The notes beneath the pieces were generated by a model. It searched no databases and was not told where the DNA came from. It was given only the letters and a program-made list of their open reading frames with translations. The translations under genes and the position numbers were made by a program. A stretch of 64,000 nucleotides of DNA from contig NZ_MRYI01000007.1 in assembly GCF_002260525.1 (NCBI RefSeq), forward strand, positions 62,001 to 126,000, in the 5' to 3' direction. Positions 39,955-64,000 of the stretch are shown here, in pieces; position 1 is the stretch's first letter; each line of letters starts with the position of its first letter. Source of the DNA: Hahella sp. CCB-MM4. GTDB lineage: Bacteria > Pseudomonadota > Gammaproteobacteria > Pseudomonadales > Oleiphilaceae.

Positions 39955-40785
39955 ATGGAAACCGGAATAATAAGACGCTGGCAAAGGTTTACCAATATTG
40001 CTCACGGCAATTCGTTAATTGTACCTCTGGATCATGGTTTTACCATGGGGCCTATAGAAGGTATCAGCAGTTTTAGTGAGGTGGATCACTGGCTTAGAAA
40101 TCCTGCGATAGACGGTGTTATTGTCCATAAAGGCCTGATGAAACACCTGGTTGTCAACAAAGTCATCAAGCACACCGCTGTGTGTCTTCATATCAACGGG
40201 ACAAGCACTTTGTCCTCTGATGTCAGCGAGAAGCCGCTTCTCCTAGATGCGGAGATGGCCGTCCGATACGGTGCCGATGCCATAAGTCTCGATCTGATTT
40301 TCTCCCCTGAAAATACTGCCAGGAATTTTGCCTTGCTCGGAACCATTGTCCGCCAGGCGAATCATTACGGCCTGCCGATTCTGGTCATGCTGAACCTGAA
40401 GGAAGGCACTTATGACCCTGCCAATCTTGTTAACCTGCAGCGGCAATACATAAGAAGTTTATGTGAGCTTGGGGTCACCACGGTCAAGCTGAAGCGGCCG
40501 GAAAGTACCGAACTGATGCATAACCTGCTGCGTGGCATCTGCCAGGACATCAATATCGTCTTTGCCGGTGGAGCTTACTGTAACGAACAGACCATCATAG
40601 ACATGACGGCGGCCGCCATCGATGCAGGCGCGAAAGGAATCTGCGTTGGTCGCAACATCTTTCAGCACCCGCGCCCGGAAGAGTTGTTGAGAAAACTGAA
40701 AAGCGCCTTATTCGGCAGCACAGCAAAACTTCAAATTTCTCAGAGGGAGCAAAACAATGAATTCTCAGGACAACCTGTTCTCTGA
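39955..40785 (+). CDS. GriI/ADH-synthase-like class I aldolase
   Basis: A 276-residue DeoC/LacD-type aldolase. LIVPLDHGFTMGPIEGI is the family hallmark; Lys178 or Lys180 in TTVKLKRPE is the expected Schiff-base lysine; INIVFAGGAYCNEQTIIDM and AGAKGICVGRNIFQH close the barrel. Relatives make 2-amino-3,7-dideoxyheptulosonate (archaeal aromatic synthesis) or, as GriI, the C7 precursor of 3-amino-4-hydroxybenzoate from aspartate semialdehyde and a C3 phosphate. At the head of an NRPS/PKS cluster the second role is likelier. The partner ring-closing enzyme (GriH-like) is not in the window. Its end overlaps the next gene by 29 bp. Confidence 0.85.
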   Translation: METGIIRRWQRFTNIAHGNSLIVPLDHGFTMGPIEGISSFSEVDHWLRNPAIDGVIVHKGLMKHLVVNKVIKHTAVCLHINGTSTLSSDVSEKPLLLDAEMAVRYGADAISLDLIFSPENTARNFALLGTIVRQANHYGLPILVMLNLKEGTYDPANLVNLQRQYIRSLCELGVTTVKLKRPESTELMHNLLRGICQDINIVFAGGAYCNEQTIIDMTAAAIDAGAKGICVGRNIFQHPRPEELLRKLKSALFGSTAKLQISQREQNNEFSGQPVL

Positions 40786-42475
40786 TAAGCAGAGAAAACA
40801 ACTTCTGTTAAACCCCTATCTGGGTGCTGGCAATTTTCTTCAGTTTGCCGCCCCGATTTACCCGGTGGACTGTCAGGACAGCATTCTGACAGATATGCAA
40901 ACCACGATATGTGAGGGGGAATCCATACAAAGCCTGTCGGTGCACAGTCTGGCTACGCTGGCCGGCCGTTGGGCTCTATGGTATCGGCAACAAGGTGTCG
41001 AAAGTGCAGAACCGGTTGCCGTCTATTGCGATGACGGGTTGAACTATATCATTCATTTTGTCGCGTTAACGGCGATTGGAGCCGTACCTGCGCTGACCAA
41101 CGGCAAAATGCCGGTGCCGATTGCCGCGGCACATTTTAACAACATCTCGGTAAAGTATGTGATCTGCGATACAGATCGTTGTACAGAAATCCGGGAGCGT
41201 CTGAATCCAGGGATCGAAGCGGTCGACCTTGCCACGGTTTCTCTGGGAAAAGAGGAACTGGAGAAAGAGCATTATTTTGTTCATAGTGCCCGATCACCCG
41301 TCATGATTACCCATAGCTCGGGAACCACGGGAATTCCAAAGGCCGTCATTCTGCATCATGAACAGTGGTTTCATGGTATACGGGACCTGCTGAAGAAGCC
41401 CCACGCCCAGGGGCTGGATAAGTACCTGAATGCACTTCCGACGTCCCATAATTCCTCAATTGCTTTCCTGATCCACTGTATGTTGTCCGGCAGCCAGATC
41501 ATGCTGGCTTCCCAGAGGGACGGAAAATCGGTTGCAAACCTGATTGAGGAGTACTCTCCCTCTACGGTTGTCGCCTTTCCTCAAACCTACGTTGAACTGG
41601 CTATCAAGCATGCGGATGAGCGAACGTTTTCCAGCGTCAATACCTGGGTAAACAGCGGAGATGCCGCCCACGAAGTGCATATCCGAAAACTCGTGAAACA
41701 TGGCTATCACTTCCGCGGCAGTAAGAAAATCGAAGGCTCTCAATTTGTGGACGGATTGGGATCCTCTGAGATGGGGCATATCAGCTTCCATGTCATCCAT
41801 ACCCCCTACACCGCCAATTATGGCCGTTGTGTCGGCTTCCCCCAACCCTGGGTACATGCCAAGGCCTTTCAGAAGGACGGCAAGGAAGTGCCTACAGGAG
41901 ACGTGGGCATGTTGGGAGTGAAATCTCCCAGCATTACACCCGGATACTGGAATAACTCAAACCTGACCTACAAGAGCCGCATTGGCGACTATTGGTTGAC
42001 CGGCGATATGGTCTCCATCGATAAGGACGGGCGTGTATTCCACGTGGACAGAATTTCCGATGTTATATCCACCGAAGCCGGTCCCTGCTACAGCCTGCTC
42101 ACGGAAGAATACATACTCGCCGGAATCCCGGAACTGGAAGAGTGTACCGTCGTAGGAATTCCCGCTGGAGCGGACAGCCCTTTTTCTGTTCCCGTGGCGT
42201 TGGTGGTTTGTTCCGACAGCCGTGCCACCGAAAAAGATCTCTTGTCTGCCATCAATCAGCATCTTACTGATCAGGGTTTGCCTGCTGTGACAGAGGTTCG
42301 AATTGTCGATCACCAGGATATTCCTAAAGGTATTACTGGAAAGGTGCTTAAGCGCACGTTACGTGAGCAGTTGCTAAATCCAGCCAAGTCGAGCAGACCG
42401 GCCGCCAAGCCGGCTTCCAGATCAAAGTCCCGGCGGGCATCTTCAAGATCCGCCAAAAGCAAATCGACGGCATAA
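40757..42475 (+). CDS. Free-standing adenylating enzyme (acyl/aryl-CoA ligase family)
   Basis: A 572-residue ANL-family enzyme. THSSGTTGIPKAVI is the A3/P-loop; LGSSEMGHIS replaces the usual YGxTE; LTGDMVSIDKDGRVFHVDR and the C-terminal Lys in KGITGKVLKRTL are present. In the substrate-pocket helix, SHNSS (His231-Asn232) sits where DhbE/EntE-type aryl-acid enzymes have HN, suggesting an aromatic acid substrate. No carrier domain is attached. The last about 35 residues are a basic Ser/Lys/Arg tail (KSRRASSRSAKSKS), perhaps for docking. RBS AGAGGGAG precedes the ATG. Confidence 0.85.
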   Translation: MNSQDNLFSDKQRKQLLLNPYLGAGNFLQFAAPIYPVDCQDSILTDMQTTICEGESIQSLSVHSLATLAGRWALWYRQQGVESAEPVAVYCDDGLNYIIHFVALTAIGAVPALTNGKMPVPIAAAHFNNISVKYVICDTDRCTEIRERLNPGIEAVDLATVSLGKEELEKEHYFVHSARSPVMITHSSGTTGIPKAVILHHEQWFHGIRDLLKKPHAQGLDKYLNALPTSHNSSIAFLIHCMLSGSQIMLASQRDGKSVANLIEEYSPSTVVAFPQTYVELAIKHADERTFSSVNTWVNSGDAAHEVHIRKLVKHGYHFRGSKKIEGSQFVDGLGSSEMGHISFHVIHTPYTANYGRCVGFPQPWVHAKAFQKDGKEVPTGDVGMLGVKSPSITPGYWNNSNLTYKSRIGDYWLTGDMVSIDKDGRVFHVDRISDVISTEAGPCYSLLTEEYILAGIPELEECTVVGIPAGADSPFSVPVALVVCSDSRATEKDLLSAINQHLTDQGLPAVTEVRIVDHQDIPKGITGKVLKRTLREQLLNPAKSSRPAAKPASRSKSRRASSRSAKSKSTA

Positions 42476-42484
42476 CCGTCAATT

Positions 42485-42528
42485 GGATAGTAAATGGTTA
42501 GTAAATGGATAGTAAACGGAGAGTACAA
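42485..42528. repeat. 11-bp tandem repeat before the OsmC gene, four copies
   Basis: ggatagtaaat, ggttagtaaat, ggatagtaaac and ggagagtacaa follow directly; the last copy supplies the GGAGAG RBS of the next gene, so the repeat may tune its translation. Confidence 0.85.
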
Positions 42529-42530
42529 AT

Positions 42531-42971
42531 ATGAATATCACTACCTATAAATCCAGCGGAACCTGGCAGGGAACTCTGAGCGACGGCCAGGGAAATCTGG
42601 CATTTGGACCTATCGAGACCCAGCACTCTGTCCCTCAGGATCTGGGTGGAAAGGGAATCGGTACCAATCCTGAAGAGCTGATTGTCAGCGCCGCCTCTTC
42701 CTGTTTCCTGATCACCCTGGGAGCCATCTTCCAGTTCAAAAATGTCAGTTACAAGAGCCTTCAGGTGAATAGCGAAGCTGACTTTGAGGTGACTCAAATG
42801 GGGCCTCAAATGCGAGCTATCCGTCACCACGTCAAAGTCTTTGTGGATGCCAATGGTGAAGCGGCTGACGTTGAAAGCTACATCAAGGATGCGGAGAAAG
42901 GCTGCATGATCAGTGCCGCATTATCCGGAAATGTGTCGGTCAGCGCTTCCGGCACCATCATCCAGGAATAA
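42531..42971 (+). CDS. OsmC/Ohr-family peroxiredoxin-like protein
   Basis: A 146-residue OsmC-family protein. GTNPEELIVSAASSCFLITL holds the first redox Cys and ISYKDAEKGCMISAAL-type sequence (IKDAEKGCMISAALSG) the second. Family members reduce organic hydroperoxides with thiols. Placed between the adenylating enzyme and the first megasynthase, it might protect the producer or act on a reactive intermediate; the latter would be a new role. The fold assignment is firm, the cluster role is inference. Confidence 0.88.
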   Translation: MNITTYKSSGTWQGTLSDGQGNLAFGPIETQHSVPQDLGGKGIGTNPEELIVSAASSCFLITLGAIFQFKNVSYKSLQVNSEADFEVTQMGPQMRAIRHHVKVFVDANGEAADVESYIKDAEKGCMISAALSGNVSVSASGTIIQE

Positions 42972-43053: not shown

Positions 43054-46000
43054 ATGGAAAAAGTACGCATTGGGCTGGAATCCAAGAACTACTATTTGAC
43101 ATCCGTTCCCAGGCTGTTTGACAAGGCATGTCGTCAACATGCCGAAAATCCGGCCGTTATCTGGGGTGAAGACGGTGAGCAATCCATGACTTTTGGGCAA
43201 TTGCACTCACTTGTCGGAAAAATCGTCGCAGCACTTGACGAACTCCACCTCCAGAAGGGAGATCATATTGGAGTTCACTGCAGCAAAGGGCCGCTCCTGG
43301 TGGCGTCTATTATCGCGTTGTGGCATATCGAGCTGGTATACGTTCCCATTGAGAAGAGTTTGCCTGCGGAATACCGGCGCTCGCTGGCAGAATCCGCTGA
43401 TGTAAGCGCCATCCTGCATGATGGAGACGCTTCTGCTGTATTTTCAGGGGAGAGACTTATCTCCTATGACCGGATTACCTCATACGATGAGAAAAGAGAT
43501 CTGGTCCTGGACGGTAGTTCCCTGAATCGCCCGGCGATTCTGATGTATACGTCAGGGTCCACCAATAAACCCAAAGGGGTCGTTCACAGCCAGAGACAGG
43601 TGCTCAATCGACTGGTGTGGATGTGGAATGAATATTCGTCCTATCGGGATGACGTCGCCTCCTCCCGTTCATTGATGAGTGTGATGCCGTCAATGTGGGA
43701 GCTGTTGGGAGGGCTGCTGCTCGGTCTGCCAACGGTGATGATTCCCCCGGCATTACTACAGTCTCCCGCTGCATTGCTGGAGTATCTGGCTAAACATGGA
43801 ATCTCCTGGATCACCATTACTCCTTCAATCCTGCGTCTTCTTTTGAAACATCAAACGACTCAGGAACCCGTGAGGGGTATATGCCTCAGAAGAGTGACCA
43901 TCGGCGGCGAGATCCTCCGCGATTCAGACGTCACTGGATTCCATTCGGTTTTTCCTGAAGCACTGTTGCTTGAAGACTACGGTGCCACCGAAGTTAACAC
44001 GATAGGATTTGGTGAGAGAGCGCCCGGCCAGCTCCATTGGTTTAAGTCAATTGGCAATGTACAGGTTGAAGTTCGTGACGACGAACTGGGGTTAGTGAAG
44101 GACGGCGAAGAAGGGGAAATCTGTGTCTGCGGTCATTCGCTGGCTCTTTATTATCATCAGTTGCCGGATATTACCGCCCAACAATTTGTCGAGTTGGATA
44201 ACGACACGGTAAACGGGCACCGGTTCTATCGTACAGGTGACTATGGCTATCGGGATCAGCAAGGCCGATTCATCCTGAAGGGAAGGCGGGATAACAAGGT
44301 AAAGATCAACGGACAGACCGTTGAACTCAGTGCAGTTGAAGCACTTCTTTCTGAAAATTCCGCGGTTCGCGAAGTCATTGTGACACACAGGGTAACCAGT
44401 GAAGGTCGTGGACAACTGATTGCCTGGTATACCGAAAACAGTGGTTCGGAAGTGTCTCCGCGTGAGTTGAAGTCGGATCTCAGGGCAAAGGCTCCGGCCA
44501 GTATGGTACCGCATCAAATTATCCGCCTGGATCAACTACCCAAGCTGGCAAATGGCAAGATCGACCGTCGAGCACTTGCCGAACGCCCGCTCGATCAGAT
44601 ATCTGTCGAACCAGAAACGCCCGCAGCATCGCGACTTTATGCAGAGCAAGTGCAATCGGTGATCGTCAGCACAGCCCAGAGCATCCTGGAGCGGGAGTTG
44701 GGCCGTGACGAATTCAATGATGACTGGAATGACCTGGGGTTTGATTCAGTTACTCTCGTGGAGTTAAAAGAGACACTGGCTGCGCAGCAGGGATGGCCAT
44801 TGGATATTGCGGATTTCTTTAATCATCCGAGTATTCATGAATTATGTGCGCAGCTGACCAGCAGAGGCCTGAGTGAATCCACGGCAGTACGCAATGACAG
44901 GTCCAGCAACGCGAGTGATTCTTTGGTAGCAGTTGACCGCGGGGTAACCGTTGACAGCGCGGTAACAGATGGCGGCTCGGTAACAGGCAATCGTCGTGCG
45001 GAAACTGATGACATCGCTGTAATAGGCATGGCCGGTGAATTTCCCGGTGCCGAATCCATCCAGGCACTATGGAAACTGGTCGTCAACAGTGAAGGCAGCA
45101 TTGGGGAAATTCCGTCCGACCGGTGGTCGCTGGACCAGTTCTATGACGCGGATGGTTCCCGGGCCGACCGCTCCTCAAGCAAATGGGGAGGTTTTCTCTC
45201 CGATCCCTTCAGCTTTGATGAATCCCGCTACGGGGTAACCCCGAACGACGCATTTTACCTGGATCCCCAGCACCGACTCTGTCTGCGTACTGTAAGACAG
45301 GTCATGCAGGATGCAGGCTATTGTCGCAAGGATCTGGCCGGTCAGTCGGTGGGTGTGTTTATCGGTGCCCGCCAGCCGGAATATCCTGAAATGCTGAAAC
45401 AAGCTGGAAAATACAGCGGTGCAGCGGCATTTCTTGGCAGTGATAATGCTTTGATGGCAGGAAGGATTTCTCACTTACTGGGAATTCATGGGCCATCGCT
45501 TGTATTGGATACGGCGTGTTCTTCGTCCATGGTTGCTTTGCACATGGCCTGCTCAAGCATCCGCCAGGGTGAATCAACCATGGCCTTTGCCGGTGGCATA
45601 TCGCTGACTTTCGATTCCGGGTTCTACGTCAATACTTCCGGGTTGGGAGTATTTTCTCCCACCGGAAAATGTACGCCATTTGATGATGAAGCCAACGGCT
45701 TCGTGCATGGGGAAGGGGTTGCCTTTGTCCTGCTGAAACGTTTGTCGGATGCTGTCGCGGACGGGGACCAGATATACGGCGTTATTAAGGGAAGTGCTGT
45801 AAATCACGACGGCCGTTCGAATTCTGTAACTGCGCCCAATGGTGACTCTCAGGCTGCGTTGTTACGGGATATGTTGAAAAAATCAGGCGTTAACCCCGAA
45901 ACCATTGGCTATGTGGAAACCCACGGCACAGGGACCAAACTGGGTGATCCCATTGAGGCTGGTGCGTTGCTGCAGGTTTTTGACAGTCCTCAAAGGGATC

Positions 46001-49000
46001 GAAAATGTGCCATTGGTTCCATTAAGGCCAACATCGGTCACCTGACAGCGGCGGCTGGTGTAACCTCACTGATTAAAACATTGTATGCCCTGAAACAAGG
46101 GGTGCTTCCGCCGCAAAAAAACTATTCATCCCTGAACAGGCATATAAATCCGGTATTTTCCGATACCTTCCAGGTACCAACGCATGCACAACCCTGGACA
46201 CAGTCCCTGCGCAGAGCCTGTGTCAGCTCGTTCGGTTTGAGTGGAACCAACGGGGCATGTGTCGTTGAGTCCTGGCATCAAGGTCAGAATAAGCAGAAGG
46301 TACTGACAGGAAGACGAGTCAATGAAAGTGCATGGATCGTCTGTATTACAGCAGGTAACCCTGAATCACTGACACACTACCTGACATCGCTGCTGAACCA
46401 TCTGGAGCATTCGGAGGACTCTTTTGATTCCGTTGTATTTACCCTGGCGCACCGGGAAATCGAACCTTATGGCTGGATTTTCGCTGTCTCTTCTATTGGA
46501 ACACTTAAAGCTGCCATCAGATCTGCCAGGGAAAGGTCAGGTAACCTGGATAAGGGGATACATCTGCTGGGGGAACATTCTGCAGCATTGGAATCCGCAG
46601 TAAGACAACTCCCTATCCATGGCAACAGTGGAATTCAGGACCAGTTTCGCGGCAAGGCGCTTCGTAAAGTAACCCTGCCGGTAAGCCGGGATTTTGGTCA
46701 ACGATACCGGCCGGAGATACCTGCAGGCAGTCAGGGAGTGAACCTGGATGAGACGCGTCCCTTGCAGAGCAGCCATTCCCGCCCGGATGCCGTGACGCTC
46801 GAAGCTTGCGATCAGGGGAATGTTATTGACGTAGACATCGAGGTAGCGCTGTCGAAAATTTTCCGGCAGATGATTGGTATTGAATACGACTCTTCCTTAA
46901 GCCATGAATCGATCGCTGACCATGGTCTCGACTCACTCAAGGCTCTGTCACTAAAGAAAGCCGTTCAGGACCAATTTGACCTGGATATTGAGCTTTCAGA
47001 TTTGATGGGAGGTATGAGCTTTGGAGAATTGGCTGACCTGGTCAAATCAGCCGATCGCACATCACCGCAGGCTTCCTCTGATAGTCACGCCGATCAGCAA
47101 CTCCAGGTTTCAGATATCACGCCAGGCATGGAGTGGCCATTAACCGATCTGCAGACCAGCAATCTGGTCAGTAAGCTGTCGGGCAAAGGCATGGAGGCAA
47201 TAGGAAGTTGCGTCTACATGGAGTTTGCATTTCCCAGCCTCTCAGTTGAACGGTTAGAAAAAGCCTGGAACAGGCTCGTTGCCCTTCACCCCATGCTGAG
47301 AGTCAGGATCAAGCGCAATGGAAAGCAGGTTCTGGCCGAAGAGGGGACCGGGTACAAGATTAAGTTTAAACCGCTTCACCTGACGGGTGAGGATGTCGAG
47401 TCTCATCTTGATCAAGTGTACGACTCCATGACCCGTCGTGTGTACGCGGTCGACAGTTATCCCCTGTACGAGATTTATGTATCACTCATTAATGCTGACT
47501 CGGGCATCGTGCATATGCACATGGATGCCTCCATTATCGATGCTCACAGTGCCCAGCTGTTGCTCAGGCAATGGTACGCTCTGTATCAGGACGAGCACCA
47601 TGTGCCGGATCTTCCTCAGATCAGCTTCTTTGATTTTCTCAATTATCAGGTGAAGGACAAAGCGACTGAGGGGTACCAGAAGGCACTGTCGTACTGGACT
47701 GACAAACTAAACGGAGACTGGCTGCCCGCCGTTTTACCTGAAGAACCAGCGATAAAAAGCTCGCCTGATGAAGGATCGGCAAAAGCGCGATCTGCGCACA
47801 ATTCGGCGGAAGATCAAAGAAGAGTATCCAGTTTTCTGCGGCTGCATAAACCTTTGTCGTCAGAGACGGTTCGTCGAATCAGGGGCTTATTGAAAGCCTC
47901 CGGTGTGGCTATTTCCAGTGGATTATTTGCGGTATTCCTTGACTGGCTTTCCCGATACCAGCGGGAGAAACCGTTTGCCGTATCAATGACTCTGAAAAAC
48001 CGACCTCCGATTCATCCGGATATCGATAAGGTGGTCGGCCCGTTCACGTCCAGTAGTGTGTATATCGCAGAGGCTCGAAAGGGCGGCACTTTCCCGGACT
48101 TTGCCAAAGCCGTTCAAAGTAACCTTTATCGTGATCTTGAACATAGTCAGGTAAGCAATGTTGCGGCGATGCGCAACAGCCACCGAAGCAATCCTGTGTC
48201 CATTGTTTATTCAGGATTACAGCGAAACCCTGCCGAACCGAGCCTGATCAATGACGTCAATGAAGAGCTTGGAATGACCAGCGGGGTCAAGCTTCATTGC
48301 CATATCATCGAGAACGGGGAAGAGGTTTCTCTGGACTGGGATATCGACCAGCGATACCTCTCGGCCGAATTGGCGAAACAGTTGATGACAGAGCTGGCCG
48401 AGTATTTCGAGTGGCTGTGTGCAAGTGAAGATTTTACAAACAAAGATAGGGCTCCTGAGGTCAGTGGGCCAGTAATTTCTGCACCTCTAACATCTACACC
48501 TCTAACCGCACTCATGCAAAGCTATGTGACGCAGGGGCTGATGAAACCTGAGTCTTTGCCTTCCTATGTCATCCGTACATACGAAGTTTCGAGTCTGAAT
48601 ATTCATCGACTCAGTGCGGTCTTGAAGGAATTGGGAGACCGTCATGCCATCTTCACGACGTTGATCAATCCCAAAGGCCAGTCCTGCTTTCAGGGATCCT
48701 CAGCATCTTATCCCTTATTTCGTATTAACTGGGCCGGGCGCCGTCCTGAAAATCTCGAATCCGCCTGCCGGGAAGTAGAGCAGCGATTGGTATCGGAGAT
48801 GTCCAAGTCCCGGAATCAATGGCCTGGTTACTTCATTGGGCTGATGGAATACGGCGGTCGTTACTTCCTGCAGTTTCTTTTCAAATGTCTGTATTTCGAC
48901 GGTCTATCAACATTGAAGTTCCCTGACGAGCTGATTTCTGCCTATGAATCGGAATCAATGGGAATAACTGACATAGACACCACACAGACCGACGTGTCAC

Positions 49001-51387: not shown

Positions 51388-54300
51388 CGGGCAAGTCCAG
51401 TCTGCATGCACAGCGATTACAGGAACTAAGAACAGAAATTCGTGATGCGGTTTCAGACATCGCGGAGATCCCTCAAAGCCAGATCGAGGACGACATCGGA
51501 TTAGGTCAGCTGGGTTTTAATTCGCTCCACTATACCATTCTGAGTGCGCAGCTGGGGGACATGCTCAATCGTGAAGTCAGCCCAACGTCGCTGTTTGACC
51601 TGCCGACACTGAACCACCTGGTGGATTTTGTCGCAAAAGAATTGCCTGAGAATTCAGAACCGTCGGCTGATGGCAATACGATCGGGTCCTCTGTTGAAAA
51701 TTTCCAAGCAGACCACTGGGCGCAACGAGAAGAGGTGATTCCACGTCTCTCAGAGCAGCATGACGCCGCGGAACATCTTGGAGCATCCGGAAAGCAAAGC
51801 TACAAAGATGCTCTGGCCATTGTCGGTATTCATTGCCGCATGCCCAAAGCCGGCAACCTGGATGAATTCTGGGCCAACCTGGCACAGGGGAAAGACTGCG
51901 TTGAAGAGGTTCCTGAAAGCCGCTGGAACTGGGAACAGATCTACGGTCGCGACGGCAATACCACCTATGCGAATGAAGGCGGATTTTTAGAAGACATTGA
52001 CCAGTTTGATGCGGGATTTTTCAGACTGTCGCCGCGGGAAGCGGAGCTTATGGATCCCAAGCAGCGGCTGCTGCTTCAGGGCGTATGGCATACGCTGGAG
52101 GATGCGGGCTATCGGCCCTCAGAACTCAAGGGGAGCGATGTGGGCGTGTTTATCGGCTCTACAGGCGATGAATATGCCAACCTCTTGATCCAGGCCAGAC
52201 ACAAAGTCGACAGCTTCACTCTGACGGGTACCGGCCGGGCCTTTATCAGTAATCGGGTGAGTTACTTTTTTGATTGGAGCGGACCCAGTGAGGTTATCGA
52301 CACCACCTGTTCAAGCTCCCTGGTAGCACTCCATAGTGCACAGCGGGCGATCAATAACGGTGATTGCTCGGCGGCTATTGTGGGAGGTATCAGCCTGCTG
52401 ATGGATCCGTATCCTCAGATCAGTCTATCCAAGGTCAATGTGCTGGCGGATGACTGTCGTTGTAAAACCTTTGACTCCCGGGCCAACGGCTATGTGAGAA
52501 GTGAAGGATTGGGCCTGGTGATGGTCAAGCCGTATGCCAAAGCGATCGAGGATAATGACCACATTTATGCGGTTATCCGGGGCTCGGCGGTCAATCACGG
52601 CGGACACTCGTCAGCATTGACGGCCCCCAATTCAAGAGCCCAGTCAGCGCTGATTCAAAAAGCCTTCCGGGACTATCAGGTAGAGCTTGACGGACTTGGT
52701 TATTGCGAAGCCCATGGAACCGGAACCCAACTTGGGGATCCGATTGAAATTGAAGGCCTGAAAAATGCCATTGCCGGTATCGCCGGTGAGCAGGGGCTGA
52801 CAGCGCTTCCTCCACAAAGTGTTTCTGTGGGTTCGGCGAAAACCAGTATCGGCCATTGTGAGGCAGCTGCAGGCATTGCCGGGCTATTGAAGGTGGTGAT
52901 GTGCCTGAGGAATCAGTCGATTCCACCTGTCGTTCATCTCAATACGGTAAATGACAAAATTAAGCTGGAAGGCAGTCCGCTGTATCTCTCCAGAACAAAC
53001 CAATCCTGGAGCGTCACATCCACACAAAATGCGGCGAGAAAGGCGACGGTCAGTGCATTTGGATTTGGTGGTGTTAATGCCCATGTGATCGCCCAGGAAT
53101 TCAATGATTTACGACTCGGCGCTCGAGCCAGAACGCTGGTTCTGCCGGTCGCAGCCAGGGACAGAGAGCAGTTGGTTCAATATGTACGACTCGTTCGCGA
53201 TGCGGTCGCCGGGGCGGATGAGAACAGGTTGGCGGACTTGCTCTACACCTTCCAGACGGGTCGCGAACAGTTAAACGAAAAAGTCGTATTCATTGCCGGT
53301 GAAAAGAATACGCTGCTCGACTCGATGGACGGTTTCTGCCGAGGAAGCCAAAGCTTCCTGATTACAGGGGGAGTCCGGGGATATGAGCAGTCCATATACG
53401 GAGACTGGAGCTGCTTTGAGAAGCGTGAAGTCACCCTGGCGGTCGAAGGGTGGTTGGAGAAGGGAGTGTCCGAATGGAATCGTCTATATGACGGTCAACC
53501 CAAACGTATTCCTGCACCGGTCTACCCGTTCGCCAGACAGAGTTATCTCCCGAAATCGCTGGTAGAGTCCTCCTACAATAAAGTCGGTTATTTCCTCGAC
53601 AAGCTGGAAGATCATCGATATCAGATCCTGCTCACGACTCAATACGAGTACGTCCGGGATCATGTGGTGAACGGAGAGAGGATTCTCCCCTCTGCCGCCT
53701 ATATTTCCTTTATGGAGGATATTGCTTACAGCCAGTTGGGTATCCGGGGAGCGTTATGCGTATCCAATATTGTCTGGTCCCAGCCTGTACGTTTCACTTC
53801 GCGTTTTCCCGTTGCGATTAACTTTGAGGTTGAAAGCCTGGATAACGGTGACTGGAACATTATCTGTTACACCTTCCAGGATGAGGCAAGAGTTGAGCAT
53901 TGCGCCGCGCGGATTAAACGCCACTCTGGTGATCTATCATCAGAGAAGCTCTCCGACGGAACCCGGCAGTTCAAAGCCGCCCGGTCAGAAGACGAGATAT
54001 ACCGCCAGCTCGCTGATATCGGCCTGACGTTTGGAGACAGTTTAAAGACCGTTAAACAAATCTGGTACTCGGAACATGAAGCGCTAAGCCAGATCCGGGT
54101 CGAGGCCGATAAGACTGTGGGCCAATCGGAACCTGCGCTGAAAGTTGAGGCAGTGGATGCCATATTCCAAACCGCTATCCTGCACCAGTGTTGTACGTCC
54201 AATCAGGGGGAGTTGAGCATCCCATTCTCTGTTAACCGCCTGGTGATTCATGGACGTATGGAGGAGGACATGTATGTCCGCGCCATCAGCCAGAATCAAG

Positions 54301-55947: not shown

Positions 55948-58900
55948 ATGAATATTTCAGACTTGGCTCGCAATCTGGTGAAGGACGCAATTGTTCGCGA
56001 AACCATGATGGACGCGGCTTCACTGCAGGAACAGACGCCCTTCGAGGAATACGGTATTGAATCGGTGATGAGCGTATCGATTATTCGTGTTCTGGAAGAT
56101 AGCTTCGGCGAATTGAGCAAATCCCTGTTATTTGAGTTTCCGACTATCGGAGATCTGGTAGAACATCTGGTAGACGAACATCAAGCCACCCTCACTGAAA
56201 AACTGGCAGAGCAGGGGGCATCGACACCTGCAATCGTCGGCGACCGGGTATTCTCTGATCGCCAGCGTAAAGAACAGATCGGGATTGCTTCCGTCAACAC
56301 CGATGAGCCGGTCAGGGAGAGCGTCATTCCTGCGCCGAACACGATGGCTGCTGAAGCGCAGAAACCGGTACAACAGTCTTTGCCTGCTGTGAGTCGAACT
56401 GAAGAATCGTTGGTACCGCCTGTCTTTGGCACCATGGATTCCTCCGCAGAATCCACAGGCGGTACAGCCGGAACGGCTACTCAATCTGCGAAGTTACAGG
56501 GCACAGCGTTGTCCCATCGGGAAGCTACCCATGACCAGCAGTACAGCGATAACGATGTGGCGATCATCGGGATTGCCGGTCGTTTTCCGCAGGCAGATGA
56601 CATCGAGACCTTCTGGAATAATCTGGTCGATGGCAAGGACAGTATTACCACGATCCCCGAAAGGCTGTGGAAATGGCAGGATTTCTGGGATGAAAGCAAA
56701 GGTGTCGCGGGGAAATCCTATCTTAAATGGGGTGGATTCCTGAATGATCACCGCAACTTTGATCCACTGTTCTTCGGTATGAGCAAACTGGAAGCGGAAT
56801 CAGTCGATCCTCAGGAAAGGGTCTTCCTTGAAACAGTACATCACACCTTTGAAGATGCCGGATATAACCGGAAAAAGATCAGCAATTACCGTGTTGGTTT
56901 ATACGTGGGCATCATGTGGGGGCAATATCAGCTTTACGGAGCGATGGATGCCTCAGCGGGCTCCTCGTATGCTTCCATTGCCAACCGGGCTTCCTATTTC
57001 TTCGATCTGAGAGGACCCAGTATACCGCTGGACACTATGTGCTCCGGTTCCATGACAACGGTTCATCTGGCCTGTGAAAGTATTCGCTCAGGTGAATCGG
57101 ATATGGCGATTGCCGGTGGCGTTAACCTGACCACCCATCCAAATAAATATTTTGTGTTAAGCAAAACGGGGTTTGCTTCCTCCCATGGTCGTTGTAAGAG
57201 TTTCAGCGCGGACGGCGACGGTTATGTGCCCTCGGAGGGTGTTGGTACAGTTCTTCTGAAATCAATGAAAAAGGCGCTGCAGGACGGCGACCGGATACAC
57301 GGTGTGATCAGGGCAACCGCCATTAACCATGGTGGCAAGGTCAACGGCTTTACGGTTCCCAGTGCCCAGGCGCAGGAAGAGCTGGTGACCATGGCTCTTG
57401 AAAAGTCAAAGCTGGATCCTTCAACCATTACCTATGTGGAGGCACATGCACCGGGCACGGCTCTGGGTGATCCGATAGAGGTGAGAGGGCTGACGACCGC
57501 CTTCAGAAAGCACACGGACAATAAGCAGTTTTGTTCAATCGGCTCGGTGAAATCCAACATCGGCCACCTGGAGTCCGCCGCGTCGTTTGCCAGCATTGCC
57601 AAAGTGGTTAAGCAGCTTGAAGAAAAGACGCTGGTTCCTTCTATTCATCTGGAGAATGAAAACCCCAATATCCAGTTTGATAAGACACCGTTCTATCTGC
57701 AAAAAAGCCTGACGCCATGGAAGCTACCACTCAGGGAAAATAACGGACGTCTGGAAGCTTTGCCCAGAAGAGCCGCCATTAACTCCTTCGGTGCCGGAGG
57801 GGCGAATGCGCATATGATTGTTGAGGAGTATATCGCGCCGACCTTTGTAGGTAATGGCATGGTTGACGATGAGCAACTGTTTCTGCTGTCAGCACGTGAT
57901 GACATCACTCTCAACAGCCTGATGAATAAATATATCTCCTATATCGACGAACTGCTTGATATGCGGGCGAAGATTGAAGAAAGCGACACCGTCAGTCGGG
58001 TGATGGAAGCGTTGAATCAGGCAACCTCTATCAGCTCATCCCTGCTGAGCAATGACGATCTGCTCATTAACCTGCTGACGGGGGCGGAGAGTTCCTCCAA
58101 AGTGATTCGTGCCATTGCGGAAACCTGCAACGTGCTGTTGAGCGAACAGGAGATCGACCATTGCCGTACAGTGTCGGACCTGAAAAGCACGATACTGGCA
58201 AAGGTCTGTAGCAAATATGTGGCCGAAGGAGAAGCAGAGCGTCGCCATCTGAGGTCCATGGCCTACACGATGCAGACCGGTAGGGAACATCTCTCCTGCA
58301 GGTTGGGCATTGTTGCCGGTAGCCTTGCCGGACTGAAATCCGTATTGCTGGATGTATTGTCTGAGAAACAAAGCGAGAAAATTGCCCGGGGCAAAGTAAA
58401 AAATGTGGCACTGCTTCCAAAGACCAGTGAGCAAGATCAGCAATTTATCGGCCGGCTGATGCAGCAACGGAATCTCACACGGATTGCCGAGCTCTGGTGC
58501 AAAGGCGTTGATATTGACTGGGAGGGTTTTTATGAGGCCCGGCCGGGTATCGTGTCTTTGCCTCAATACCCATTCGCCAAAATTATTTGTTGGGCTCCGA
58601 CTGCAACGCTGACCGCATCCGGACAGGTGATTGCCTCCGGTGCTGATTCAGCCGCACAAAGCAGCGCAGCTGGTGGATCGGTTGACGGTTCCAAAGGCAC
58701 GGCTGATGAATCCTATCTTTTGGGCAAGGCCTATCTCAAACAGGGTTTCCTGGCCGGCAAGCTGCTGGAGGCCTCGTTGGAACAGGCAACAAAAGGCTCG
58801 CTGCAATTGGAAGATATTGCTGCCACGGCCCAACTGACAGACCTTGCTTCGGTCACAACGAAGGATGCACGGGAAGAGTCAGGAATCAGGCTCAGCCTGT

Positions 58901-61900
58901 TCTCGGTTAATGACGAAAAACCGGTTGCTCAAGGGCAGTTCAAACCCTCGGAAATCTTCAAAAGTGAGGTGTTGAGTGTCGATATCGGCTCCCGGATGCA
59001 AAAAAATCCTGAGCTTGTCACGCACACGACCGGCCTGCCAGGGCTGGAAGGTGTTGCCACAGCGCCGAGCATAGCCATTGCGCGGTACACCGAGGTGGCG
59101 GGAGTATCGCCATCAGTGGTGGCAATGTCCGTACTGCATCAGTTGTTAGCGGATGAGGGCGGCACAGATGAAACGGATGTGAGCTATGCATTCAGTCGCG
59201 ACCTGCTGGTAATGAGCCGGGTTTCAGAAAAAGGTTGGGTTGTATTGCATAAGCATGATGACGGTAGTTTTGATGCGTTCATCCTTAATGAAAGCCGGGA
59301 ACCTTCCGTCTATTGCCAGAATATTGTTGATGCCAGAACACTGCAGGCAGACAGCATTGACTGCCGGTTATTCAACCCGGTATTTGAGCCGGTGAGTAAA
59401 ACCGGTGAAGGTTCTAACGGAGAAAGCACGAGAAAAAATACGGCCTGTCTGGCGGTATTTCCTCAGGGCAGCGAGCCGGATATGGGGAAACTGGTGGATG
59501 CCTGTCATTTTGAAAAGGTCTACGCCATGACCTATGGCGCCAAATGTGCCACGGAATTAATGGATTCGACCCATTGGCAGATCAATGTGAATGATCTGGA
59601 GGACATCGAGCACTGTTTGAAACATGTGGACAGCATCGGACAGGTCATGTTTTTCGGTGGCTCCTTTAATGAAGGGGATGCCGGCATTGAACCGGTTCAG
59701 GAAGTGGCATTCTTCCATAAGCTGATGCAGCAGATCCTGACTTCCGAATGGAGTAAAGACGAAAACTTCTCATTACATGCCTACACCCGTTTCTGTGAGC
59801 TTGTGGAACAGAGCGAGCCTGTCTCCAGGTTTGCCGGTGGTCTGTCAGGCTACATCAGAAGCCTGGCCCGGGAGTATCCGAAGCTTCGTCTAAGGCTGGC
59901 TGATGTGGACTGGCAGCAGGGTACCCAGGGTAATGCTCTGATTGAGACATATGTACAACTGAGAAACAGTGCCAATCTGGAAGTCTTCCATCGCGGCGAG
60001 GAGTTTCTGAATCGCCGGGTGATCGAGTTCAGTCCCGAAACTGCTCAAACCCCGGCGGTCTTCAGGCAGGAAGGAGTCTATCTGCTGGTGGGCGGTGCCG
60101 GCACCGTGGGGTACCAGCTCAGTGAATATCTGGCGAAGAATTATCAGGCCAGGATCGTCTGGGTGAATCGGTCGCCTTTGAGTGATGCCCGTAAACATGC
60201 AATGGATGCCATCAACCAGTTGGGAGGGGAATGCCATTACTATGCTCTTGATGTTCAGGATGCTGCCCAGTTACAGGAAGCGGTAGACGATATCTGCGGT
60301 AAATTCGGCAGAGTGGACGGTGTGGTGCATCTCGCCATGGAGAGAGATATCTGTCGGATCAGTGAGCTATCTGATGATCTGTTAAGGCAACGTATCGGTG
60401 CCAAAATAGCCGGCACGGAAAATCTGGCACAGGCATTTAAGGGCAGGGAGCCCGACTTCATGCTCCTGTTTTCGTCTGCTGAGGCCTACGTGGGAAGCAC
60501 CGGATGGAGTGCCTATACCTCAGGATGTTCCTATCAGACACAGATTGCCCAGCGTATATCGCAGCAGGGCATTCCAACCTTTGCAGTAAATTGGGGCTTC
60601 TGGGAAGGCGTTGACGAGAACATCGTGGAAATGCTGAAGAACAAGGGACTCCGTTTCCTGAATATCAGGGACGGCATCAATGTGATCAAGTATGTTCTTG
60701 GCAATCAGTGTCATCAGTTGGTGGCGCTCAAGGCGGAAGACCGTGTGGTCGATCAGATGGGCTTTGAAAAGCTTGCCAGGCCACAGGAAGTCATCTCCCC
60801 GGCAGTCGATGCTGAGAAAAACGCAGCAGTCCAGGCAGATGCCACACAAACGCAGGCAGTTTCTGCGCCGGTCGCAACTGTGTCTGGCGCAGGCTCACTC
60901 TCCGGAGCTGCATTGAATCAGGAAAATCTTCAGAAGGCCCTGATCAGCCTGTTTGCCCAGGTATTGAAGCTTGATGAAAGTGATATGGATGCTAATGAGG
61001 ACATGCTCAATTATGGCGTCGACTCGCTGATCGTCCTGAATATTCAGACCGAACTGGAAAACCGGGCCGGACAGGTCAGCGTCAACCTGTTGTTGGAAAA
61101 TCAGACCATCAGCGACATCGCGACGGCCATGTTGGCCGACTATCGCGAACAGGCGGCTGCGTTGCTCGGTACCGTAGCAGGTGACGAAACCACCACTGAA
61201 ATGACGGGGGATGGCATAGCACCGTCATCAGAACAGGCGTCCCCAGTATCCCAGGCTGAATCGACAGCCATTATCCCGAAAGTACCAGAAAACCTCAGTG
61301 TTCTAAGAGCGATGGCATTGGATGAAGGTGAAACCTTCCTGAAGGGCTATCACCAGCTTTATCAGGACAAGGCACTGATGACTGAGCCTTTGGAGGGCTC
61401 TGTGGTCGGAGATTATGCTGCCGACGGCGTGCTGCACGGTCTGGTGGACAGCGGTCAGGGCAACATGGAGGTGTTTGTGAGTGGCCAGGGAATTCCTGTG
61501 GTACTGATGCCGGCGGTGGCCGTGACTGCACCGACCTGGCTGTACCTGTTGAATTCCAGGTTGCGTGAAAAATATCAGTTCATTGTGGTGCATCCTCCGG
61601 GATACGGCATGAGTGAGCCGGTAAAAGAGTGCAATACCAAGGGCATCGTATCGGCAGTGATGGGGACTTTGGACGCGCTCGGGATCAGGCGTCCGTTCCA
61701 TCTGGTGGGTTCCTGCCTTGGTTGTGCCGCCTCGATCTACCTGGCCAAAACCCATCCGGAAAGGGTGGCTTCACTGACATTGGTTGGAGCGTTCCATGAC
61801 ACCTCTGATCTGAACGTCAATGACCCGGATAACATGTCGGGAGCCCAATTCGAAGAACTGGCTAAGTCTGCGGTGGAATCCCTGCGGGAGGACTTCCAGG

Positions 61901-62298
61901 CCGTCATTGATAACCTCAAGGAAACGGAGGCGTGGCAGGCAGACATCATCCGGGAACGCCGCGATCTGTTGCTGAACTCCCAATGTGTGAACTTCCTGGT
62001 TGCCCTGCGCTACCTGAATGAAATGATGAGCATGTCTCTGCTGCCATGGCTGCCGGAAGTGGGCGTAGCTACCCACTGCATATACGGGGACGTGGATAAG
62101 ATCATTACTCCCCGTCATTCAAAAGAAATCAGTCAGGGAATCAAAGGGGCACAGTTAACCTGTATTCCCGGATCAGCCCACTTCCCATACCTGACTCACG
62201 AAAAAATGTTCGTGCCTGTCCTGGAAGGATTTATTGATGACCAGGAACGCAAGCAGATAAAGACAGTGACTGAAGACGCGGTGGAAACCGTCAATTGA
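55948..62298 (+). CDS. Trans-AT PKS 3: ACP-KS-(unassigned)-KR-ACP-TE with Cys nucleophile
   Basis: A 2116-residue PKS. ACP with GIESV, Ser39. KS3 (about 205-635): DTMCSGS Cys365, His500 in an altered HAPGT motif, His540; catalytic residues kept. A linker with MAYTMQTGREHL follows and no AT. Residues about 920-1160 form an unassigned, possibly decayed DH-like domain lacking HxxxG. KR: GGAGTVG at 1382 and Tyr1523, but Cys at the Asn position (YTSGC). ACP: GVDSL, Ser1693. TE (about 1840-2105): GSCLG places Cys1923 as nucleophile, with Asp2048 and His2078. It should form a beta-hydroxyacyl thioester and release it. It begins 22 bp after the previous gene. Confidence 0.92.
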   Translation: MNISDLARNLVKDAIVRETMMDAASLQEQTPFEEYGIESVMSVSIIRVLEDSFGELSKSLLFEFPTIGDLVEHLVDEHQATLTEKLAEQGASTPAIVGDRVFSDRQRKEQIGIASVNTDEPVRESVIPAPNTMAAEAQKPVQQSLPAVSRTEESLVPPVFGTMDSSAESTGGTAGTATQSAKLQGTALSHREATHDQQYSDNDVAIIGIAGRFPQADDIETFWNNLVDGKDSITTIPERLWKWQDFWDESKGVAGKSYLKWGGFLNDHRNFDPLFFGMSKLEAESVDPQERVFLETVHHTFEDAGYNRKKISNYRVGLYVGIMWGQYQLYGAMDASAGSSYASIANRASYFFDLRGPSIPLDTMCSGSMTTVHLACESIRSGESDMAIAGGVNLTTHPNKYFVLSKTGFASSHGRCKSFSADGDGYVPSEGVGTVLLKSMKKALQDGDRIHGVIRATAINHGGKVNGFTVPSAQAQEELVTMALEKSKLDPSTITYVEAHAPGTALGDPIEVRGLTTAFRKHTDNKQFCSIGSVKSNIGHLESAASFASIAKVVKQLEEKTLVPSIHLENENPNIQFDKTPFYLQKSLTPWKLPLRENNGRLEALPRRAAINSFGAGGANAHMIVEEYIAPTFVGNGMVDDEQLFLLSARDDITLNSLMNKYISYIDELLDMRAKIEESDTVSRVMEALNQATSISSSLLSNDDLLINLLTGAESSSKVIRAIAETCNVLLSEQEIDHCRTVSDLKSTILAKVCSKYVAEGEAERRHLRSMAYTMQTGREHLSCRLGIVAGSLAGLKSVLLDVLSEKQSEKIARGKVKNVALLPKTSEQDQQFIGRLMQQRNLTRIAELWCKGVDIDWEGFYEARPGIVSLPQYPFAKIICWAPTATLTASGQVIASGADSAAQSSAAGGSVDGSKGTADESYLLGKAYLKQGFLAGKLLEASLEQATKGSLQLEDIAATAQLTDLASVTTKDAREESGIRLSLFSVNDEKPVAQGQFKPSEIFKSEVLSVDIGSRMQKNPELVTHTTGLPGLEGVATAPSIAIARYTEVAGVSPSVVAMSVLHQLLADEGGTDETDVSYAFSRDLLVMSRVSEKGWVVLHKHDDGSFDAFILNESREPSVYCQNIVDARTLQADSIDCRLFNPVFEPVSKTGEGSNGESTRKNTACLAVFPQGSEPDMGKLVDACHFEKVYAMTYGAKCATELMDSTHWQINVNDLEDIEHCLKHVDSIGQVMFFGGSFNEGDAGIEPVQEVAFFHKLMQQILTSEWSKDENFSLHAYTRFCELVEQSEPVSRFAGGLSGYIRSLAREYPKLRLRLADVDWQQGTQGNALIETYVQLRNSANLEVFHRGEEFLNRRVIEFSPETAQTPAVFRQEGVYLLVGGAGTVGYQLSEYLAKNYQARIVWVNRSPLSDARKHAMDAINQLGGECHYYALDVQDAAQLQEAVDDICGKFGRVDGVVHLAMERDICRISELSDDLLRQRIGAKIAGTENLAQAFKGREPDFMLLFSSAEAYVGSTGWSAYTSGCSYQTQIAQRISQQGIPTFAVNWGFWEGVDENIVEMLKNKGLRFLNIRDGINVIKYVLGNQCHQLVALKAEDRVVDQMGFEKLARPQEVISPAVDAEKNAAVQADATQTQAVSAPVATVSGAGSLSGAALNQENLQKALISLFAQVLKLDESDMDANEDMLNYGVDSLIVLNIQTELENRAGQVSVNLLLENQTISDIATAMLADYREQAAALLGTVAGDETTTEMTGDGIAPSSEQASPVSQAESTAIIPKVPENLSVLRAMALDEGETFLKGYHQLYQDKALMTEPLEGSVVGDYAADGVLHGLVDSGQGNMEVFVSGQGIPVVLMPAVAVTAPTWLYLLNSRLREKYQFIVVHPPGYGMSEPVKECNTKGIVSAVMGTLDALGIRRPFHLVGSCLGCAASIYLAKTHPERVASLTLVGAFHDTSDLNVNDPDNMSGAQFEELAKSAVESLREDFQAVIDNLKETEAWQADIIRERRDLLLNSQCVNFLVALRYLNEMMSMSLLPWLPEVGVATHCIYGDVDKIITPRHSKEISQGIKGAQLTCIPGSAHFPYLTHEKMFVPVLEGFIDDQERKQIKTVTEDAVETVN

Positions 62299-62336
62299 TC
62301 ACTGCTCCTAAAGGATACCCAGGAGGAAAAGAAAAA

Positions 62337-63836
62337 ATGTCTGGAAATGAAAAAATCGAACAATTCGTCAATTCTGCCAACAAGAGCGCGTTGTCCCTGG
62401 AGGGGGCAACGGGCGCCTGGACCGGCAGGGACTATCGAGAGAGTCTTCGTGACGGTCGTAGCGTCTGGTATGACGGTGAGGAAATCGACGTTTGCAGTCA
62501 TCCTCGCTTCACCGGAGTGCTGGAAACACTGCAATCGTTATATGACACGCAGTATCTGGAGGAAAATCTGGATACCACCACTTATGTGTCTGAACTCACC
62601 GGTAATCGGGTCAGCTATTCCTATCTGGCACCGACCACCCGAGAGGAGCTGACAACCAAATGGAAGAACTCTCACTTCTGGATGAGCGAAAGCCTGGGTC
62701 TTATGCCAAGGCTTCCCGACTTCATGTCCAATGTGGTGGTGGGCCTGTATGACTATAAAGCCCATGCCGGGGCCGTCGATCCGCAGTATGAAAAGAATAT
62801 CGAAAGATACTTTGAGTATTGTCGTGAGCATGATGTCAGCATTACCCATGCGATTGGTGATCCTCAGATCGATCGCTCTGGGTCACTGGAGGATAACCCG
62901 GAATTCGCGCTAAGAGTTGTTGAGATTCAGGCAGAGGGGATTGTCGTTAATGGCGCTAAGCAGCTGGCCACACTCGCTCCCTATTGCCATGAAGCGCTGA
63001 TTTATCTGTCTCCGTCGTTCGCCAAACGAAAAGACCCCAGTTATGTGGGCTGGTTTGCCGTCCCCATGGCGACTAAGGGCTTGAAGATTCTTTGTCGCGA
63101 ATCTCACTGCAAGGACTCGGGTGGCCATGAACACCGACTTTCTAATCACTACGACGAACAGGACGCCATGTTGTTCTTCGACAATGTGTTTATCCCGATG
63201 GAAAGGGTGTTCCTGTTGAATGACGCCGACACAGCCTTTAAAGGTTTCTTCCGCCTCAATGCCTGGGCGCTGTATATCGGACAGATCCGGTTCTACCACA
63301 GGCTGAAAACATTTCTCGGAATTACGTCTCTGGTCAGTAAGGCGATCGGAGTAAATGAGTTTCGCGAAATACAAAACAATCTGGGGGAGCTCGCTGTCTA
63401 TGCCGAAATGGTCAGGCTTGGCCTGGTCGGTATGGATGCCGAGGCCAAACCGACGGATTCCGGTCTGATGGCACCTAGTTCCACATTCGCCATGGACTCA
63501 TTTGCCGCCCAGATCGCGTCCCGCATTTCTGAGATTCTGCGTGTGATTTCCGGTTCGGGCATTGTCATGCACCCATCCAGAAAAGATCTGGAGAGCCCCG
63601 AACTTCGCCCTTATCTGGATCTCTACATGCGCGGTAAAGGCTGTGATGCCGAGTATAAATCACGCTTGTTCAAACTGGCCTGGGAGTTAATTGCAGACGC
63701 CTTTGGCAGCAGGCAGGAAATCTATGAACTCTGGAACCGGGGTGATGTGGTTCGAAACAGAATTCATGTGTATCAAAGCAGCCCGGACAGAGTCGAGATG
63801 GAAGAGCGCTTAACCCGCTGGATTAACTCATTCTAG
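62337..63836 (+). CDS. HpaB-family FADH2-dependent aromatic monooxygenase
   Basis: A 499-residue protein of the 4-hydroxyphenylacetate 3-monooxygenase (HpaB) / acyl-CoA-dehydrogenase-like fold. RDYRESLRDGRSVWYDGEEIDV at the start, ITHAIGDPQIDRS, VVNGAKQLATLAPYCHEALIYL and FDNVFIPMERVFLL are typical. Such enzymes use FADH2 from a separate reductase to hydroxylate phenols, free or carrier-bound. It probably modifies the aromatic part of the product. No HpaC-type reductase is in the window. AGGAGG and the ATG at 62337 set the start; the frame extends 14 codons upstream without support. Confidence 0.9.
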   Translation: MSGNEKIEQFVNSANKSALSLEGATGAWTGRDYRESLRDGRSVWYDGEEIDVCSHPRFTGVLETLQSLYDTQYLEENLDTTTYVSELTGNRVSYSYLAPTTREELTTKWKNSHFWMSESLGLMPRLPDFMSNVVVGLYDYKAHAGAVDPQYEKNIERYFEYCREHDVSITHAIGDPQIDRSGSLEDNPEFALRVVEIQAEGIVVNGAKQLATLAPYCHEALIYLSPSFAKRKDPSYVGWFAVPMATKGLKILCRESHCKDSGGHEHRLSNHYDEQDAMLFFDNVFIPMERVFLLNDADTAFKGFFRLNAWALYIGQIRFYHRLKTFLGITSLVSKAIGVNEFREIQNNLGELAVYAEMVRLGLVGMDAEAKPTDSGLMAPSSTFAMDSFAAQIASRISEILRVISGSGIVMHPSRKDLESPELRPYLDLYMRGKGCDAEYKSRLFKLAWELIADAFGSRQEIYELWNRGDVVRNRIHVYQSSPDRVEMEERLTRWINSF

Positions 63837-63860
63837 GTTCAGGAATTATCAGGAGGACAA

Positions 63861-64000
63861 ATGGACAACGGACCAAACAACAAAGGCTTACCTTTTACCA
63901 TCTGGATGCTCAGCATACCGATCTTTATCGATATGCTGCTGTCTTTTTCCATGTTTTTTATCGACTCTTTCTTCCTCAGTCAGATTTCGACCACGGCTGC
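63861..64000 (+). CDS. MATE-family efflux transporter, truncated by the window edge
   Basis: Only the first 46 codons are present. After a short polar N-terminus (MDNGPNNKGLPFTIW) comes a first membrane helix and the sequence FIDSFFLSQIS, which matches the start of NorM/DinF-type MATE proteins. AGGAGG lies 6 bp before the ATG. Its place, 24 bp after the monooxygenase gene, suggests export of, or self-resistance to, the cluster product. Confidence 0.7.
   Translation, partial: MDNGPNNKGLPFTIWMLSIPIFIDMLLSFSMFFIDSFFLSQISTTA

Follow-up and report, generated by a model that had tools for sequence, protein, structure and literature searches.

A candidate arylamine diazotase in a 3-amino-4-hydroxybenzoate-type hybrid peptide-polyketide gene cluster of Hahella sp. 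CCB-MM4

A 64,000-nucleotide stretch of the 6.66 Mb genome of Hahella sp. CCB-MM4 (hereafter the window; contig NZ_MRYI01000007.1, positions 62001-126000) contains most of a hybrid nonribosomal peptide synthetase/polyketide synthase (NRPS/PKS) gene cluster. The cluster is complete, about 32 kb long and encoded entirely on the + strand, running from window position 39955 to position 71881 of the continued numbering, about 7.9 kb beyond the window end. Continued coordinates are window numbers past 64000, and positions in the adjoining stretch L002 are converted to them by adding 63899. We consider it reasonably probable that the cluster specifies a complete trans-acyltransferase (trans-AT) assembly line primed with 3-amino-4-hydroxybenzoate (3,4-AHBA), which makes a thiazoline-containing chain, and that an enzyme of the CmaA6/Tri17 type diazotises the arylamine. 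What would be new is the combination of 3,4-AHBA and diazotase logic on a trans-AT NRPS/PKS, in a widely scattered orphan cluster.

The first gene of the cluster encodes a GriI-type aldolase, the type that catalyses the first step to 3,4-AHBA (39955..40785; PF01791 84 bits, PRK07226 158 bits and BagB/FevI 87 bits, all under the curated cut-offs). A GriH/DHQS-II-type enzyme of the 3,4-AHBA synthase type is encoded 1.65 kb past the window end (L002:1752-2978; under the equivalog cut-off). The aromatic-precursor gene pointed out in a preliminary description of the window therefore has its partner just outside it, and the two types co-occur in one cluster, as in a 3,4-AHBA pathway. Eight clusters, including this one, pair a diazotase-type gene with this NRPS/PKS gene set. 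The others are from Xenorhabdus indica, a Bacillota metagenome-assembled genome (MAG; contig of 13.3 kb), Duganella sacchari, Pseudovibrio axinellae, Sediminibacterium magnilacihabitans, Sinorhizobium medicae (on a plasmid, 45 kb covered) and a Rhodospirillales MAG (12.3 kb of the contig covered).

From these genes, their domains, motifs and homologies we infer a starter, an order of steps, a diazotisation and a product as follows. GriI and GriH would make 3,4-AHBA, which the first adenylation (A) domain would load. The first ketosynthase (KS) would add a malonate unit kept as the ketone, heterocyclisation (Cy) and A domains would add cysteine and cyclise it to a thiazoline, a KS-dehydratase (DH)-ketoreductase (KR) module would add an alkene unit and a KS-KR module a beta-hydroxy unit, with malonate supplied by a discrete AT. 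A thioesterase (TE) with a Cys nucleophile would free the chain as an acid or a ring. After release, or on an intermediate, the CmaA6/Tri17-type enzyme would convert the arylamine to a diazonium or ortho-quinone diazide with ATP and nitrite, while an HpaB-type enzyme would oxidise the ring and a MATE transporter export the product. Reactions of the CreM/CmaA6/Tri17 type belong to actinomycete pathways in the published accounts consulted; a CmaA6-like enzyme acting on a 3,4-AHBA-primed trans-AT line would, if confirmed, place N-N chemistry on a different type of assembly line, in Gram-negatives. The Xenorhabdus, Duganella and Pseudovibrio relatives would then also give genetically tractable access to metabolites of the reactive diazo or aminophenol-thiazoline type.

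The diazotase-type enzyme

The gene at 40757..42475 encodes an ANL enzyme of the CreM/CmaA6/Tri17 group, a putative arylamine diazotase. The protein scored 412 bits against NF058622 (3-aminoavenalumate diazotase), and its closest sequences in the PDB were 8ztz (CmaA6, 342 bits), 9xb8 (309 bits) and 9bq0/8tf7 (Tri17, 295 bits), the next match reaching 78 bits. When its structural model (pLDDT 81) was used in a Foldseek search, the first 12 of the 50 matches listed were the ATP-dependent diazotase CmaA6 and Tri17. A phylogenetic tree of 53 of the 90 family rows with seven acyl-CoA-ligase outgroups separated the diazotase group from the acyl-CoA ligases with a support of 100/100 and placed the Hahella protein inside that group. 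Five lineages arose from the unresolved base of the group, three of them holding rows with CreD/CreE-type genes nearby, and the eight NRPS/PKS rows formed a clade with L045/L048 (support 88/93). CmaA6 and Tri17 are described as forming N-N bonds from nitrite, Tri17 with ATP (PMC11705231), and CmaA6 is likewise reported to use ATP (PMC10777205). Because the Hahella enzyme is a relative of these ATP- and nitrite-dependent enzymes, its homology suggests that it diazotises the arylamine with ATP and nitrite. The preliminary description had called it an aryl-type adenylating enzyme. A role in loading the aryl acid was dropped as first choice, since among solved structures its closest relatives by fold are CmaA6, a diazotase, and Tri17, an N-N ligase.

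To our knowledge the cremeomycin pathway involves no PKS/NRPS chain. It resembles the proposed pathway in that an amino-hydroxybenzoate is diazotised by a related ANL enzyme, CreM, and differs in having the nitrite pathway CreD/CreE within the cluster (PMC11705231). Closer in logic are the ava and cma clusters of actinomycetes (avenalumic and p-coumaric acid), in which two AHBA enzymes provide a 3,4-AHBA starter that is loaded by a separate ligase and extended with malonate, a CmaA6-type ATP-dependent diazotase acting on the primed chain as an enzyme distinct from the loader (PMC10777205). As described in that paper, however, those clusters use a type II highly reducing PKS with no NRPS or thiazoline, AvaA7 then removes the diazo group, and the nitrite genes AvaE/AvaD are often present.

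Several observations weigh against diazotisation on a 3,4-AHBA-primed line. The score of 412 bits misses the curated NF058622 threshold of 975, and the protein is not filed under that equivalog; 9xb8, one of the four nearest PDB sequences, was deposited as the fatty-acid-CoA ligase FadD. GriI and GriH both score under the equivalog cut-offs, and they also miss those of the NCBIfam exception models BagB/FevI and BagC/FevH (87/500 and 209/750 bits), the assignments being to type only. The last KR carries Cys in place of the usual Asn in all seven aligned relatives. Homologues of CreE and CreD were not found in this genome in repeat searches, each of which detected 4/4 positive controls, and domain scans of the cluster recognised no AvaA7-like denitrifying enzyme. 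One genome collection gave 467 relatives of the diazotase-type gene, of which the best 80 were retained (58 of them with full 10-kb flanks). In the available flanks of these 80, GriH or GriI was present in just 28, and 45 had neither GriH, GriI, CreD nor CreE.

The strongest alternative, to which we attach a lesser yet appreciable likelihood, keeps the same 3,4-AHBA-primed trans-AT line and has the CmaA6-like enzyme no longer acting as a diazotase: it would be a carboxylate-activating or amide-forming ligase, activating 3,4-AHBA, for instance, or the completed acid, and the pathway would form no N-N bond. The missing CreD/CreE, the sub-threshold diazotase score and the 309-bit match to a protein deposited as a CoA ligase all fit such a role, as do 18 of the 80 relatives that adjoin GriH/GriI with no CreD/E in the available flanks, but the near relatives CmaA6 and Tri17 make N-N bonds (PMC11705231), megasynthase 1 already has a loader A domain and ava-type clusters lacking CreD/E are common (PMC10777205). 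We therefore retain diazotisation of the arylamine as the preferred function.

Other genomic settings of diazotase-group genes were recorded. On a Klebsiella michiganensis plasmid (NZ_CP048110.1; L028, 7768-13701) GriH-type, GriI-type, NAD-epimerase-family, MFS exporter and diazotase-group genes follow one another, a compact candidate for a 3,4-AHBA pathway with diazotisation and no PKS, in which the NAD-epimerase-family gene is possibly akin to the denitrifying AvaA7. Diazotase-group genes also stand beside GriH/GriI in Moorena (L051, L053, L056), Brasilonema (L055) and a Myxococcales MAG (L059), with no CreD/CreE matches in the available flanks. In five Streptomyces loci (L063, L065, L072, L075, L104) and one from Crossiella (L114), matches to a type I KS (283-302 bits) and to an AT lie no more than 10 kb from such a gene, and L063, L075 and L114 have CreD/CreE matches as well. 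These six actinomycete loci are candidate modular-PKS diazo clusters, and because they have type I KS and AT, diazotase-group genes beside a modular PKS are not unique to the NRPS/PKS family.

Nitrite genes and a putative cupin/diiron fusion

No CreD/CreE was found in the genomes of X. indica, the Bacillota MAG or Sediminibacterium, in searches that detected four actinomycete positive controls, or in the 45 kb around the S. medicae cluster; only weak partial matches were obtained to CreE in Duganella and to the CreD superfamily in Pseudovibrio and the Rhodospirillales MAG. Published ava-type clusters likewise lacked CreD/CreE-type nitrite genes in 72 of 134 cases, exogenous nitrite being one proposal (PMC10777205).

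The Hahella cluster does encode a fusion of a cupin and a putative diiron oxygenase (L002:4963-6012), with an N-terminal cupin (PF07883) and a helical C-terminal half that had no Pfam or PDB match. Residues E216, H219, E261, H285, D289 and H292, which by pattern include the spacing HxxxDxxH, are invariant in the five aligned fusion relatives, and the HxH...H of the cupin is kept in all four that have a cupin. In SznF the corresponding ligands are given as E215, H225, E281, H311, D315 and H318, with cupin residues H407, H409 and H448 (PMC11705231). The likeness lies in one protein having the six-ligand set of a heme-oxygenase-like diiron oxidase (HDO), including HxxxDxxH, together with a three-His cupin (PMC11705231, PMC10849742). 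SznF, however, has the HDO first and the cupin at the C-terminus, an order reversed in the Hahella protein. Assignment as an HDO by homology failed, since a PDB profile search matched the cupin half only, and there was no sequence match to SznF or any solved HDO. As the likeness is by pattern and the domain order is reversed, the fusion was not filed as SznF.

The fusion is present in the collinear X. indica cluster; the stretches examined from Pseudovibrio, Duganella, Sediminibacterium and S. medicae yielded no match to it. When 49 genomes carrying diazotase-group genes were searched with a profile, three had it: X. indica within the cluster, and Streptosporangium saharense and Streptomyces SID13031 elsewhere, the latter having a match to the helical half only, on a stretch with no ligase matches. 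With three of 49 genomes having the fusion, one of them within the cluster, the idea of a fixed partner of the diazotase was weakened. A single relative of the fusion turned up among 72,556 plasmid records, in Embleya; a diazotase-group gene lies about 15 kb from it, and KS, AT and ligase matches of the type II kind are nearby. The 397 other genomes of the phylum sample gave none. CreD/E matches were absent from the fusion-bearing stretches of the Hahella cluster, the X. indica cluster and Embleya. The link between fusion and diazotase is suggestive only, and replacement of the missing nitrite genes by the fusion is speculative. We give little credence to the fuller proposal in which an o-quinone-diazide, or something formed from it, arises on a thiazoline polyketide and a mirror image of SznF takes over from CreD/CreE as the source of nitrite or nitrosyl nitrogen. 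The fusion offers a handle on the origin of nitrite in the many diazotase clusters that lack CreD/CreE. At the S. saharense locus (L138:13401-18903) the fusion relative has as neighbours a class I/II aminotransferase and a one-chain protein like phenylalanyl-tRNA synthetase, in what resembles a small pathway of its own; the synthetase might confer self-resistance.

Assembly line, chain release and starter unit

Three megasynthases were delimited by Pfam domains and motifs. Writing ACP and PCP for acyl and peptidyl carrier proteins and C* for a degenerate condensation-like domain, megasynthase 1 (43054..51387) reads A(starter)-ACP-KS-ACP-Cy-C*-A(Cys), megasynthase 2 (51384..55925) PCP-KS-DH-KR and megasynthase 3 (55948..62298) ACP-KS-KR-ACP-TE. 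The Pfam scan detected no AT domain (PF00698) in any of them. Because a discrete FabD-like AT is encoded in the same cluster (L002:4096-4953; 296 bits, above the curated cut-off), the AT-less modules are assigned to the trans-AT type, in agreement with the hybrid NRPS/trans-AT PKS of the preliminary description, and the discrete AT is predicted to load these ACPs in trans. The order of domains given there was right, except that it had missed a second condensation-like domain, which follows Cy and precedes the Cys A domain and whose active-site motif is broken.

All three KS domains have the Cys-His-His set, and the DH HxxxGxxxxP motif with its Asp, the Cy DxxxxD motif and the KR GGxGxxG motif with Ser and Tyr are all present, by motif definitions that we take as standard. 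The Cy domain (47137..48153; PF00668) carries DASIID, and an alignment of the A domain at 49843..51363 gave, read by eye, the Cys-type signature D-L-F-N-F-S-L-V-W-K at what we take to be the signature positions, which bears out the cyclised cysteine proposed earlier. The module order KS, KS-DH-KR and KS-KR also fits the proposed ketone, alkene and beta-alcohol units, so that the predicted core is Ar-CO-CH2-thiazoline-CH=CH-CH(OH)-CH2-CO-. Since Cys replaces the usual Asn in the last KR, the activity of this domain, and hence the beta-alcohol, is to be taken as presumptive. A relation to solanimycin was rejected: SolG (491/2200 bits) and SolL (77/780) gave generic A-domain and MATE scores far under the cut-offs.

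The TE (61369..62253) has a Cys nucleophile (GSCLG), as do all seven aligned family TEs, and an Asp 28 residues before the His, as determined by alignment and motif positions. The same Cys and Asp placement is described for SulM and ObiF1, both of which form four-membered rings (PMC11298585). Together with a last unit predicted to be beta-hydroxy, if the last KR works, this raises the prospect of a release like that by ObiF1 in obafluorin, the TE closing the terminal beta-hydroxyacyl unit into a four-membered beta-lactone. We think this improbable: the TE is of the Abhydrolase_1 type in Pfam, the 50 Foldseek matches listed for its model (pLDDT 66) include esterases, lipases and C-C hydrolases and neither ObiF1 nor SulM, so that close kinship to the TEs of these two was not found, such hydrolases commonly place the Asp there (PMC11298585), and the last KR has its unusual residue.

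The starter A domain (43102..44586) has Met instead of Asp at position 235, in numbering that we assume to follow GrsA; the motif is VMPSMWE or a variant in all seven family members aligned, the Rhodospirillales MAG stretch not reaching this domain. This upholds the earlier call of a non-amino-acid starter. Because GriI and GriH are encoded in the cluster and the first A domain lacks Asp235, the starter loaded by this domain is most likely 3,4-AHBA. A GriH relative occurs in seven of the eight family genomes or records, including this one, and in none of the sequence of the Rhodospirillales MAG; that of Duganella is distant (34%) and that of the Bacillota MAG lies on a different contig. GriI was found in the X. 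indica, Duganella, Pseudovibrio, Sediminibacterium and S. medicae clusters. Another aryl acid as starter, with GriI/GriH serving a tailoring branch, seems quite unlikely given this spread of GriH and GriI and an A domain consistently devoid of the amino-acid-binding Asp.

Relatives, gene layout and genomic setting

Of 21 query pieces from the Hahella cluster, 20 had matches in X. indica at 32-63% identity and in the same order, together representing the 15 genes that begin with GriI and end with the GyrI-like one; no PPTase was detected in the stretches examined. The X. indica cluster is a collinear sister by sequence comparison, those of Pseudovibrio, Duganella, Sinorhizobium, Sediminibacterium and the two MAGs being looser relatives. 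OsmC is conserved in six of the seven sister clusters (matches in L037, L038, L039, L040, L061 and L027), with no match in Sediminibacterium (L049). A discrete AT was also found in X. indica, Pseudovibrio, Duganella and Sediminibacterium, and not in the 45 kb of S. medicae. The Pseudovibrio and S. medicae clusters carry an additional B12 radical-SAM-type gene, and S. medicae also has a SagB-type dehydrogenase, which would fit oxidation of the thiazoline. Because the family spans phyla, though the GC content of the Hahella cluster resembles that of its surroundings, its distribution points to transfer across phyla.

Pseudovibrio axinellae AD2 and DSM 24994 are presumably the same type strain. 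The DSM 24994 cluster shares GriI, the diazotase-type enzyme, OsmC, the starter A-KS-Cy-A, KS-DH-KR and KS-KR-TE parts, HpaB, MATE, GriH, type II TE, AT, SAP protein and DoxX; it differs in its rearranged order, in the B12 radical-SAM-type gene and in that no cupin/diiron fusion was found. We take it, by description and not by sequence, to be the orphan trans-AT polyketide-NRPS cluster reported from AD2 in 2017, with 61% similarity in antiSMASH to a Xenorhabdus bovienii cluster (PMC5563371). The part of that report dealing with the cluster makes no mention of 3,4-AHBA, a diazotase or a product. No report of a 3,4-AHBA-type trans-AT polyketide cluster was found in the open-licence PMC literature, and Xenorhabdus indica was not mentioned among the literature matches listed. 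The earlier statement that the gene set matches no named cluster thus stands in that no product was found in that literature, and needs amending in that a cluster taken to be its sister is already in print as an orphan.

All genes named in the preliminary description (aldolase, AMP-forming enzyme, OsmC, three megasynthases, HpaB-type enzyme and MATE exporter) were found where it had placed them. Among them are the OsmC-family protein (42531..42971; PF02566), the HpaB-type flavin-dependent monooxygenase (62295..63836; PF11794/PF03241, 257 bits to 2yyg, under the NCBIfam HpaB cut-offs) and the MATE exporter (TIGR00797, 194 bits), which begins at 63861, has its first 140 bases in the window and ends at continued position 65216. 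Beyond the window the cluster also encodes a DoxX-like protein (L002:1348-1731), a type II thioesterase (L002:3305-4102), a SAP-domain protein (L002:6058-6672), a GyrI-like protein (L002:6734-7186) and, as its last gene, a phosphopantetheinyl transferase (PPTase; L002:7215-7982, ending at continued 71881).

Eight upstream proteins were scanned, of which three were cobalamin-related (CobN, CbtA and a CobB/CobQ-type protein), four belonged to an acid-catabolism group and one had no match; because of these functions the cluster start was set at 39955. The genes at 33741-38609 encode a TRAP solute-binding protein (DctP), an HpcH/HpaI-type lyase, a class III CoA-transferase and a MaoC-like protein, an arrangement that we take to resemble a small operon for C5 or hydroxy-acid catabolism. 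A recent island was rejected on composition, the GC content being 51.7% for the cluster within the window, 49.8% for the rest and 51.8% upstream. No tRNA genes were found in the window or in L002. Even so, the best match among 57 other genomes reached 97 bits with 27% identity, and there was none at E 1e-40 in 397 other genomes. A defence-system reading was discarded, PADLOC having no match for three proteins. Downstream of the cluster lies an open frame of 1824 amino acids (L002:14429-19900), open at the end of the stretch and with no Pfam match, which adjoins a class 3 lipase and small Gly-rich proteins; more long frames occur in L003.

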